A stretch of DNA of 64,000 nt, taken from positions 3,626,001 to 3,690,000 of the forward strand of contig NC_012914.1 of NCBI RefSeq assembly GCF_000023585.1. Direction: 5' to 3'. Source of the DNA: Paenibacillus sp. JDR-2. GTDB lineage: Bacteria > Bacillota > Bacilli > Paenibacillales > Paenibacillaceae. The notes beneath the pieces were generated by a model. That model was not told the origin of the DNA, ran no database searches, and saw nothing but the letters and a program-made list of their open reading frames with translations. The translations under genes and the position numbers were made by a program. Every line of letters starts with the position of its first letter. Within the stretch, counting starts at the first letter, position 1. Positions 17,435 to 20,909 of the stretch are shown here, in pieces.

Positions 17435-17484
17435 TTGCATCAAGAACATATGTTTGGTATATAATAAATAAGAACAAATGTTCT
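17435..17484 (+). promoter_or_regulatory. SOS promoter with two LexA boxes
   Basis: AGAACATATGTTTG (17443-17456) and AGAACAAATGTTCT (17471-17484) both match the Bacillus LexA/DinR box (CGAAC-N4-GTTCG core GAAC-N4-GTTY). A TATAAT -10 lies between them at 17460-17465, and TTGCAT at 17435 is a possible -35 with a long 19-nt spacer. Repression by LexA and induction by DNA damage follow from known biology. Confidence 0.8.
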
Positions 17485-17501
17485 TGAAGAGGTGAAAGCG
17501 T

Positions 17502-17699
17502 ATGGAGAGGTTTATCGGCAAAGTGGTGCAGCTCATTTATATTGATCGAAAGCGCGACGTAAGCATACGCGACGTTCGCGTTATATCCGTTAAAGCCGGT
17601 CGTCTGAAGGCGTATTGTTTCCAGGCGCAAGCCATTCGTATTTTTAATCTCGATGGAATCGTTGATGTTGAAATCGCGCGAAAGAAAGAAGGGGCTTAA
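17502..17699 (+). CDS. Tiny WYL-like protein, SOS-controlled
   Basis: 65 aa. ATG 17502 follows AGAGGTGAAAG. The segment RVISVKAGRLKAYCFQAQAI then RIFNLDGIVDVEI has the strand pattern of a WYL domain (basic residues, then x-Y-x, then R-x-F-x-L-D-x-I), although the W of the WYL triplet is Ala. YolD-like proteins, which accompany SOS polymerases in Bacillus, have a related shape and are an alternative. WYL domains in other regulators sense nucleic acids. It is directly preceded by two LexA boxes and followed at 4 nt by a winged-helix gene. Confidence 0.65.
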   Translation: MERFIGKVVQLIYIDRKRDVSIRDVRVISVKAGRLKAYCFQAQAIRIFNLDGIVDVEIARKKEGA

Positions 17700-17703
17700 C
17701 CTG

Positions 17704-17919
17704 TTGAACGATACGGAGCGGAAGCTGCTCAGGATTCTTTATAATCGATATGGCCATCAGAACACGCGCATTGCTATTCCTGAATTAGCGCGTTTCGCTC
17801 AAAGGGAAGTTGGCCAAATCCGAAAGGCGCTTGAGAAATTGCGCGAGGAGCGCTTCATCGAATGGGAAGATGCGATGGATTACGTAAGGGTTATTCCCGG
17901 ATGGCTGCAAGCGCGTTAA
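17704..17919 (+). CDS. Tiny winged-helix-like DNA-binding protein
   Basis: 71 aa from TTG 17704, which follows AAGAAGGGG at acceptable spacing; the frame is open further upstream but inside the previous gene. The content fits a lone winged helix: ERKLLRILYNRYG helix, IPELARFAQREVGQIRKALEKLREE as helix 2 and recognition helix, then FIEWEDAMDYVRVIPGW as the wing. It is co-transcribed with the WYL-like gene under LexA control. Together the two resemble a conventional HTH-WYL regulator cut into two polypeptides in reverse order. Target unknown. Confidence 0.65.
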   Translation: MNDTERKLLRILYNRYGHQNTRIAIPELARFAQREVGQIRKALEKLREERFIEWEDAMDYVRVIPGWLQAR

Positions 17920-17924
17920 ATTTA

Positions 17925-17957
17925 AACAGCCCGCTTCATTCAGAAGCGGGCTGTTGT
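17925..17957. terminator. Bidirectional terminator
   Basis: AACAGCCCGCTTC (17925-17937) pairs perfectly with GAAGCGGGCTGTT (17943-17955), loop of 5. It separates the convergent winged-helix gene and dps. Confidence 0.85.
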
Positions 17958-17976: not shown

Positions 17977-18429
17977 TTATTTGCCGTTAAACGCGCTAAG
18001 CATCCAAACATGCTTTTCGAGCTTGGTATGGATGGCAAGCAGCATGTCCGCCGTTGTTTCGTCGCCGGCTTCCTCTGCGTCTTCCATTCCTTCCTTAAGC
18101 TCATCTATCACTAACGAGAAATCTTTAATTAGCTGGTCAACCATTTGTTCGGCTGTTTCCTTGCCGCTGGCTTCCTTGACGGTGGACTCTTTCAGATGGT
18201 CGCTCATTGTGGCGATCGGCTGGCCTTTTACCGCGAGCAAGCGTTCCGCGATTTCGTCGACATGCAGCGCCGCTTCTTCATAAAGCTCCTGAAACTTAAC
18301 GTGAAGCGTAAAGAACTGCGAGCCTTTGACATACCAGTGATAGTTGTGAAGCTTCGTATAGAGAACACTCCAGTTGGCGATCTGGCGGTTCAAGTGTTGT
18401 TGGACGGTTTTGGTTGTTTTGGTAGTCAT
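17977..18429 (-). CDS. dps: Dps-family ferritin-like DNA protection protein
   Basis: 150 aa. The ferroxidase ligands of the Dps family occupy the same numbers as in Listeria Dps: His31, His43, Asp58 and Glu62. A dodecamer oxidises ferrous iron with hydrogen peroxide, stores it, and shields DNA. The N-terminal tail is basic (MTTKTTK). It stands alone on the minus strand between two SOS-controlled units, with GAGAGGAA before its start. I found no clear PerR or LexA box in its own upstream region. Confidence 0.93.
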
Positions 18430-18513: not shown

Positions 18514-18542
18514 TTTACTCCCGAACATCCGTTTGGTATAGT
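18514..18542 (+). promoter_or_regulatory. SOS promoter with a LexA box in the spacer
   Basis: TTTACT (18514-18519), 17-nt spacer, TATAGT (18537-18542). CGAACATCCGTTTG (18522-18535) fills the spacer and fits the Bacillus LexA box with one deviation. The layout (box, then GGTATA) copies that at 17443. Confidence 0.7.
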
Positions 18543-18587: not shown

Positions 18588-20909
18588 ATGACAAATACTG
18601 TGCAATTATCCGTGCGTGCGCTCGTGGAATACGTTTATAGGAGCGGGGATATCGATACAGCTTTCCGATCGGCCGTTGCGCTTACGGAAGGAACGAAGGC
18701 GCATCAGCATATTCAGCGGCAATATGGCGAGCAGGATGCCAAGGAAGTATACCTATCGGCAGAAATGGCTTGCCAGGATCTGCTGTTTGTTGTTGACGGA
18801 CGTTGCGACGGTCTGCTTCAGACGGATAGCGGGCTAACGATCGATGAGATCAAATCCACCTCCGGCAGGCTGCCCGCCCTTATGGAAGAAACGTACTTCG
18901 TTCATTGGGCGCAGGCGTATTGTTATGCCTATATGGTTGCAAAGGAGCGGGAACTAGCTTCGATTAACGTTCAGCTCACCTACATGCAGATAGACACGGG
19001 AGAATGCCGCCGCTTCGTGCGTACGATGACATTAACGGAACTAGAGAAGTTTTTGTTCAATACGGTCAGCAGCTATTATCCGTATGCCTCAATGAAAATT
19101 CTTCATGCCGCAAAACGGGATGCCAGCATCAAGAAACTGGCTTTCCCGTTCTCCTCGTATCGTGCTGGCCAGCGTAAGCTGGCGGCTTCCGCGTACCAGA
19201 CGATCGCGGATGGGCGCAAGCTGTTTGCGAAGGCGCCCACCGGAATAGGCAAGACAATGTCGACGCTTTTTCCGGCAGTAAAAGCGATTGGGGAAGAGCG
19301 GTTGGAGCGGCTCTTTTATTTGACAGCCCGCACGACAACGCGCACGGCTGCCGAAGAGGCGCTCAAGATGCTCGGCGATGGCGGTCTGCATCTGCATGCC
19401 GTTACGTTGACGGCAAAAGAAAAGGTATGCTTGAAAGACGAAGTTCGCTGTTCTCCCGAATATTGCGAATTCGCAAAGGGTTATTACGACCGCATAAACG
19501 GAGCCATTCTGGACATGCTGGGCAACGAGGCGTCCATGACGCGCGAAGTCATTGAACGGTACGCTTACAAGCATCACGTATGTCCATTCGAATTTTCGCT
19601 TGATGCCGCTTATGCGGCGGATGCTGTCATTTGCGATTATAACTATATTTTTGATCCCCGCGTAAACCTGAAGAGGCTGTTTGAGGAGCAGAAGCGGAAG
19701 ACGGCATTATTGGTAGACGAAGCGCATAACCTTGTCGACCGGGCACGCGAAATGTATTCCGCGGAGCTTCGAAAAGCCGATTTTCTTGAGCTGCAGCGCG
19801 CAAGCAAAACCATCCGTCCGCTTGTGTACCAATCGGCGAAAGCAGTTAACCAATATTTTATCGCTTTGCGCAAATCCATTGAGGAAAGCGGCAAGGAAGC
19901 AACAGGCACAAACATGGAGCGTTACCTGCCTGAGCAATTGATCGAACAACTGGAAACGCTTGTCCAAGCGGCAGAAGAGCAATTGGCTCAAGGGGACCAA
20001 GATCCGCTATTGCTGGACGTCTATTTCGGTTGCCAGCATTTCTTGCGCATAGCCAAGCTTTATGACGAGCGATATGTTACCTACGCCGAGAAGGAAAGGA
20101 ATGACGTTCGCATGAAGCTGTTCTGTCTCGATCCATCGTATCTGCTTCGGCAATATGCCAAAGGCTACAAAGCGCAGATTCTGTTTTCCGCTACGCTGTC
20201 TCCGCTTCATTATTTTATGGACATGCTTGGCGGAGATGCAGAAACGGATTACGCCGTCGCCATTCCATCGCCATTCTCGTCCGAACAGCTTGATGTCCGG
20301 ATCGAAAAGCTGTCGACCCGTTATCAGGACCGCGAACGGACAATGGACCGAGTCGCCGGATTGCTGCGTTCGACAGTTGAGCGGCATCAGGGTAATATTC
20401 TGGTGTTTTTCCCGTCTTATGCCTATTTGAACGGTGTTTATGAACGGTTTATGGAGCTGCCGCTGTCAGAGGAGGAGTCTGCAACGTTTACGGCTATGGT
20501 CCAAAGACCAAATATGCCGGAGGAGGAGCGGGATGCCTTTTTGGCTGCTTTTGCACCGGACAATAATAACACGCTTGTCGGCTTCGCCGTTATGGGCGGC
20601 ATTTTCTCGGAGGGGATCGATTTGGTGGGGGACCGTCTTACCGGTGTGGCCGTCGTTGGAGTAGGATTGCCCCAGGTCGGGCTGGAAAGGAACATTATCA
20701 AAGACTATTTCGACCGCCAAGGGAAAAACGGCTTTGAATATGCGTACGTCTTTCCCGGTATGAACAAAGTACTGCAGGCTGGCGGCCGGCTCATCCGTTC
20801 GGAAAGCGACCGGGGAATGCTGCTGCTGATCGACGACCGTTACGCGCATCCCCAGTATGCCAGGCTTTTACCGCCGGAATGGAGTGAGAATGAGACAAAA
20901 ATACAATAA
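18588..20909 (+). CDS. DinG/XPD-type DNA helicase with N-terminal PD-(D/E)XK-like nuclease domain
   Basis: 773 aa. Residues 60-95 (VDGRCDGLL...IDEIKST) fit a PD-(D/E)XK nuclease core like that of Cas4/RecB. The helicase part has Walker A APTGIGKT at 216-223 and DEAH at 377-380. Cys281, Cys288, Cys293 and Cys332 between them match the four ligands of the XPD 4Fe-4S cluster. C-terminal motifs include GGIFSEGIDL and GGRLIRS. Such proteins unwind DNA 5'-3' in repair. GAGGAG precedes ATG 18588. The promoter carries a LexA box, so it should be induced by DNA damage. Stop is followed by a terminator. Confidence 0.88.
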   Translation: MTNTVQLSVRALVEYVYRSGDIDTAFRSAVALTEGTKAHQHIQRQYGEQDAKEVYLSAEMACQDLLFVVDGRCDGLLQTDSGLTIDEIKSTSGRLPALMEETYFVHWAQAYCYAYMVAKERELASINVQLTYMQIDTGECRRFVRTMTLTELEKFLFNTVSSYYPYASMKILHAAKRDASIKKLAFPFSSYRAGQRKLAASAYQTIADGRKLFAKAPTGIGKTMSTLFPAVKAIGEERLERLFYLTARTTTRTAAEEALKMLGDGGLHLHAVTLTAKEKVCLKDEVRCSPEYCEFAKGYYDRINGAILDMLGNEASMTREVIERYAYKHHVCPFEFSLDAAYAADAVICDYNYIFDPRVNLKRLFEEQKRKTALLVDEAHNLVDRAREMYSAELRKADFLELQRASKTIRPLVYQSAKAVNQYFIALRKSIEESGKEATGTNMERYLPEQLIEQLETLVQAAEEQLAQGDQDPLLLDVYFGCQHFLRIAKLYDERYVTYAEKERNDVRMKLFCLDPSYLLRQYAKGYKAQILFSATLSPLHYFMDMLGGDAETDYAVAIPSPFSSEQLDVRIEKLSTRYQDRERTMDRVAGLLRSTVERHQGNILVFFPSYAYLNGVYERFMELPLSEEESATFTAMVQRPNMPEEERDAFLAAFAPDNNNTLVGFAVMGGIFSEGIDLVGDRLTGVAVVGVGLPQVGLERNIIKDYFDRQGKNGFEYAYVFPGMNKVLQAGGRLIRSESDRGMLLLIDDRYAHPQYARLLPPEWSENETKIQ

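Follow-up and report, generated by a model that had tools for sequence, protein, structure and literature searches.

Two small genes behind LexA boxes in Paenibacillus sp. JDR-2: a lone WYL domain, a lone winged helix and their possible roles in the SOS response

In a 64,000-nt stretch of the genome of Paenibacillus sp. JDR-2 (here called the window), two very small genes, P1 and P2, stand close together behind two LexA boxes. The initial annotation took them for the WYL and winged-helix halves of a DNA-damage regulator of the PafBC or DriD kind, divided over two chains. PafBC, DriD, BrxR and CapW are transcription factors with the domain order wHTH-WYL-WCX; all have the WYL barrel in common with P1, and PafBC and DriD also have its link to DNA damage. 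However, in PafBC-type regulators the wHTH, WYL and WCX domains lie in one chain, whereas P1 and P2 are separate ORFs of 65 and 71 aa. The locus raises the question of whether the pair is a split regulator, or whether the two proteins serve the SOS response in some other way.

Layout and LexA control of the gene pair

The features of the locus are collected in Table 1. Both reading frames and the 4-nt gap between them are as given in the initial annotation, and two LexA-type boxes precede them. The boxes were scored against CGAACRNRYGTTYG, the LexA-box consensus. The −35 and −10 elements are 19 nt apart, a long spacing, and the pair was missed by a consensus scan. P2 is given with a TTG start (17704); CTG at 17701 is a possible alternative, because relatives show ATG there.

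Table 1. Features of the P1-P2 locus, in positions of the window
Feature	Position	Strand or placement	Basis and remarks
−35-like element, TTGCAT	17435–17440	+	direct reading; block kept in nine relatives
LexA box 1, AGAACATATGTTTG	17443–17456	between −35 and −10	13/14 to CGAACRNRYGTTYG; kept in relatives
−10 element, TATAAT	17460–17465	+	direct reading; block kept in nine relatives
LexA box 2, AGAACAAATGTTCT	17471–17484	just 3′ of −10	12/14 to CGAACRNRYGTTYG; kept in most close relatives
P1, 65 aa, standalone WYL-domain protein	17502–17699	+	profile and predicted structure
P2, 71 aa, small LexA/MarR-type winged helix	17704–17919	+	profile and predicted structure
Intrinsic-terminator-like hairpin, 13-pair stem, end of bicistron	17925–17955	+	scan

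Single LexA-type boxes are not rare over 64 kb (7 matches to GAACN4GTTY in the window vs 3.95 expected), so conservation is what makes the case for LexA control. Among nine close relatives, upstream conservation is essentially confined to the −35/−10 region and the boxes; both boxes are kept in eight of the nine, the second having decayed in MERTA38. The wider count covered 155 non-redundant P1 genes, each with at least 150 nt of upstream sequence. A strict box lies within 200 nt 5′ of P1 in 129 of them; the rate is 2.0% in control windows (27 of 1367) and 0.7% in shuffles. The 26 genes without such a box mostly show a near-match (12–13 of 14 positions), and at one of these loci (L135) P1 sits directly behind lexA. 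No palindrome besides the LexA boxes, as might serve as a second conserved operator for autoregulation, was found upstream in the near relatives. With conserved boxes that overlap its promoter, the pair is a predicted member of the LexA regulon. LexA control, as first proposed, is solid at the level of sequence, and P1-P2 is predicted to be a LexA-repressed, DNA-damage-inducible bicistron.

Two single-domain proteins

The first protein had been called WYL-like from its residue pattern, and this was borne out by profiles and by structure. Window P1 matches a single Pfam family, WYL (PF13280), with E=0.0025 and 18.2 bits, under the cut-off of 21.8; the same family is matched by 34 of 57 P1 relatives, with a best E of 1.4e-5. 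When a P1 profile was compared with all PDB sequences, PafC came first (E=7e-5), and HHalign of P1 with the genome's own WYL regulators gave 88.7% (E=2.6e-6). The AF2 model of P1, predicted singly, is a five-strand Sm/SH3-like barrel (pLDDT 92.6). Its first 16 Foldseek matches are all chains of PafBC, BrxR and CapW (query TM about 0.65–0.79). A second structural comparison gave PafBC (6sj9_B) a Z of 8.9, with an rmsd of 1.2 over 61 residues, and here Hfq/Sm proteins score as well as WYL domains do (Z 8–9). P1 has no WCX domain, no wHTH and no N-terminal arm, and the model begins at the barrel. By profile and predicted structure, P1 is a standalone WYL domain with an Sm/SH3-like barrel. YolD was considered as an alternative identity and discarded, as neither P1 nor its relatives match PF08863 and HHalign of P1 with YolD gave 0.1%.

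In the alignment with PafC, the W-Y-L positions of P1 are G33-R34-L35, the first being Gly and not the Ala of the initial annotation. Y13, R23, R46 and F48 are nearly invariant in the P1 family; R23 is kept in 154 and R46 in 153 of 156 sequences, and C39 in 134. The two arginines align with PafC R171 and R198, and from their spacing they would match PafB R181 and R208, which line the ssDNA groove. At the positions of PafC R201 and R204, P1 has N49 and G52, both variable in the family. Mutated together, PafC R201/R204 and PafB R211/R214 abolish ssDNA binding by PafBC, the PafC pair being insufficient (PMC11804915). Binding of ssDNA by P1 is plausible on sequence grounds.

The winged-helix call for the second protein holds as well. 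The AF2 model of P2 is a winged helix (pLDDT 83.7) that resembles MarR, IclR and Zalpha domains in structural comparison (Z 10–11.6). HHalign gives 97% with the LexA DNA-binding domain (63 columns) and 94% with MarR, so that the similarity to MarR is almost as strong, against 9.5% with the winged helix of the genome's WYL regulators. One P2 relative (L058) exceeds the Pfam LexA_DNA_bind cut-off. A firm placing in either LexA or MarR was given up, 97% and 94% being too close and the Pfam matches of the family being scattered over many wHTH families. Although P2 aligns with the LexA DNA-binding domain, its recognition helix is different and it has no protease/dimerisation domain; the 71-aa chain stops after the wing, without a C-terminal autoprotease domain. 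On its profiles, P2 is a lone winged helix of the LexA/MarR type. Fission of a PafBC/DriD-type gene was rejected as the likely origin of the pair, since the winged helix of P2 is unlike theirs.

Gene partners and distribution

Downstream partners of P1 were scored within 200 nt, for the four families P2, YolD, UvrX-type Y-family polymerase and YhjD. Among the 155 P1 genes the first gene is P2 in 49, YolD in 15, a UvrX-type polymerase in 13, YhjD in 4 and none of these in 74. P2 is thus the commonest scored partner (49 of 81). Most junctions between P1 and its partner overlap or abut, and P1-P2 fusions are absent from the ORFs of the set. The expectation of a conserved side-by-side pair holds in part: the pairing is common across genera and families, but it is not obligate.

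Counted by coordinates, 20 of 100 relatives have P1 directly 5′ of a gene for a UvrX-type polymerase, and in one more (G062) YhjD stands between them. Two loci have the order box-P1-UvrX-YolD (L231, L232). Elsewhere YolD is followed by P2 (L226–L229), P2 is followed by YhjD (L230), or YhjD-UvrX-YolD is followed by P1 under a box of its own (L233). Solo P2 genes are often under their own LexA box (L034, L043, L060, L048). When the P1 tree is coloured by partner it displays 34 partner changes, clustered yet repeatedly switching, in a tree that is weak at only 63 columns. Co-occurrence of P1 with UvrX and YolD has no power, since 98 of the 100 relatives have UvrX and 89 have YolD. In these gene orders the P1 and P2 families are freely shuffled with YolD, YhjD and UvrX-type genes under LexA boxes.

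P1 also lies near the chromosomal lexA in several Paenibacillus (L112, L113, L115, L116, L121). On the Aneurinibacillus plasmid pAT1 (L223 3348–4189) and on a short contig from a different Bacilli genome (L135), lexA is directly followed by P1. Short proteins that consist of a LexA-like DNA-binding domain only are encoded at L043 (about 2516, minus strand), L077 and L224 (3228–3455); two of these adjoin P1, and one has its own LexA box.

P1 is present in 67 of the 100 relatives. A profile search found it in 153 of 300 Bacilli genomes and, at the level of genera, in 66 of the 119 sampled; the six genomes with P1 matches in a phylum-wide sample are all Bacilli. P2 was found in 30 of 100 genomes (single-sequence search), mostly directly after P1. 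The close relatives that bear names are all Paenibacillus. In Paenibacillus larvae Fernvirus phages P1-P2 lies beside the integrase, and in phage BN12 the two are annotated as YafY-like and MarR regulators. The temperate P. larvae phage Tadhana (L222 2625–3445) has YolD, two LexA boxes, P1 and P2 near its integrase, with YolD just 5′ of the pair. P1 is also plasmid-borne, and it occurs in six IMG/VR contigs. The P1 proteins of three of these match sequenced Paenibacillus genomes exactly, and these contigs are therefore probably ends of prophage calls. Two P1 copies are apparently broken by a frameshift or in-frame stop (L070 and L044, on G030:C10 and G023:C22), and the same genomes have intact copies.

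Possible functions

The closest parallel in gene context is YolD/YqjX (PF08863), which like P1 is a small WYL-superfamily protein, controlled by LexA and encoded with UvrX/YqjW polymerases. YolD was put in the WYL superfamily, within SOS operons (PMC4012209), and was proposed as the counterpart of UmuD′ (PMC6511836). Three small-subunit variants have a common N-terminal arm, the third with YhjD, and the arm of the YolD/YhjD type has been modelled as entering the polymerase (PMC12926913). The mutasome role of YolD/YqjX is disputed, with doubts raised on YqjX (PMC13335488). P1 differs from YolD in lacking the N-terminal arm for binding the polymerase, and both can occur within a single operon (P1-UvrX-YolD). 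YhjD, and the fusion of the YolD arm with YhjD, are likewise small partners that exchange with others in these LexA cassettes. No profile similarity was detected between YhjD and P2, and YhjD is not of the SH3/WYL type by its description in PMC12926913. A literature search covering main texts turned up no description of P1, whose damage-response family is apparently undescribed.

With middling confidence, we regard P1 and P2 as interchangeable parts of the UvrX/YolD/YhjD cassettes for damage tolerance that LexA controls in Bacilli. DNA damage would lead RecA to trigger the cleavage of LexA, upon which both proteins would be made. P1 would assist lesion-tolerance machinery of the UvrX/YolD type by binding nucleic acid or the polymerase through the conserved Y13, R23, K36, R46 and F48; its probable ligand is either single-stranded DNA or the polymerase. 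P2, having a DNA-binding fold, probably anchors on duplex DNA, and would position P1, or in other species YolD or YhjD, on the DNA or at the fork. In the JDR-2 genome P1-P2 would act in trans, because the genes for UvrX and for the YolD-arm/YhjD subunit lie elsewhere. In that region (L105, C1:4271500–4278500) a UvrX-type polymerase gene is followed by the YolD-arm/YhjD fusion, the third of the variants in PMC12926913, without P1; a strict LexA box was not found nearby. A separate YolD is encoded at L106.

Such an accessory role agrees with the LexA boxes at most P1 genes and a conserved footprint of promoter and boxes only, with the place of P1 in front of UvrX-type polymerases, with P2 genes that stand beside YolD or YhjD, or by themselves behind a box of their own, with P1 beside lexA (pAT1, L135), and with the occurrence of UvrX and a YolD-arm/YhjD subunit in the same genome. 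It also agrees with the standing of YolD itself as a WYL-superfamily member and proposed polymerase subunit (PMC4012209, PMC6511836, PMC12926913). Against it, no polymerase or YolD gene is linked to P1-P2 at the window locus, P1 has neither the YolD/YhjD-type arm nor profile similarity to YolD, in about half of the cases no member of the four scored families directly follows P1, and the YolD/YqjX mutasome role is itself contested (PMC13335488).

A two-subunit SOS regulator, working like PafBC or DriD but in separate chains, is a tentative possibility: P1 would sense ssDNA or a nucleotide and P2 would bind an operator, giving a second control tier after the loss of LexA. The frequency of P2 as partner (49/81), the overlapping or abutting genes, the wHTH-WYL transcription factors that make up nearly all close Foldseek matches of P1, and the retention of R23 and R46 at the places of the PafBC groove arginines all speak for it. 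Compared with PafBC, however, P1 has two ssDNA-binding arginines replaced (N49/G52) and no WCX domain, P2 is of another winged-helix type, and expression of the pair is predicted to be under LexA; near relatives have no conserved upstream palindrome but the LexA boxes, and P1 and P2 each occur singly beside polymerase-cassette genes. Of the split PafBC/DriD regulator first suggested, the domain content stands, while the type of P2 (9.5%), the lack of fusions, the free choice of partners, the missing WCX and N49/G52 do not fit. We consider doubtful a fuller form of the two-subunit reading, in which a two-chain, LexA-induced regulator reading ssDNA through a lone WYL domain is a second SOS tier widespread in Bacilli and arisen independently of PafBC and DriD. 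It is quite unlikely that P1, P2 or both tune the binding or cleavage of LexA and so shape or end the SOS response. The lexA-P1 neighbours on pAT1 and L135 and near several Paenibacillus lexA genes, the LexA-DBD-only proteins beside P1 (L077, L224), the resemblance of P2 to the LexA DNA-binding domain, and the precedent of gp7, a small protein of phage GIL01 that is reported to act on LexA (PMC4551915), point that way, but most P1 genes lie away from lexA, those nearby may merely share its regulon, and the recognition helix of P2 is unlike that of LexA. That the pair is mobile-element cargo serving SOS induction of prophages or plasmids, with chromosomal copies as remnants, is very unlikely. 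The Fernvirus, IMG/VR and plasmid copies speak for it, yet 153 of 300 Bacilli genomes have P1, for the most part with intact boxes and reading frames, and many loci, that of the window included, lie among chromosomal genes. The accessory role is favoured over the two-chain regulator and over LexA modulation because P1 and P2 each pair with genes of UvrX cassettes too.

As a lone WYL domain under LexA control that about half of the sampled Bacilli genera possess, and that often comes first in UvrX-YolD operons, P1 is a candidate for a component still missing from the Gram-positive equivalent of DNA polymerase V, the composition of which is disputed. The WYL domain, a known damage sensor inside PafBC and DriD, would here work as a free-standing SOS protein.

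As to the neighbours in the window, a dps-type ferritin gene (17977–18429, minus strand) is convergent on the P1-P2 terminator. Beyond it, a LexA-type box, CGAACATCCGTTTG (13/14, 18522–18535), lies 5′ of a gene for a DinG/XPD-like helicase (18588–20909), and two Paenibacillus relatives (L107, L108) have the same box in the equivalent position. Since dps stands between P1-P2 and the helicase gene, a DNA-protection gene is flanked by two probable SOS units.
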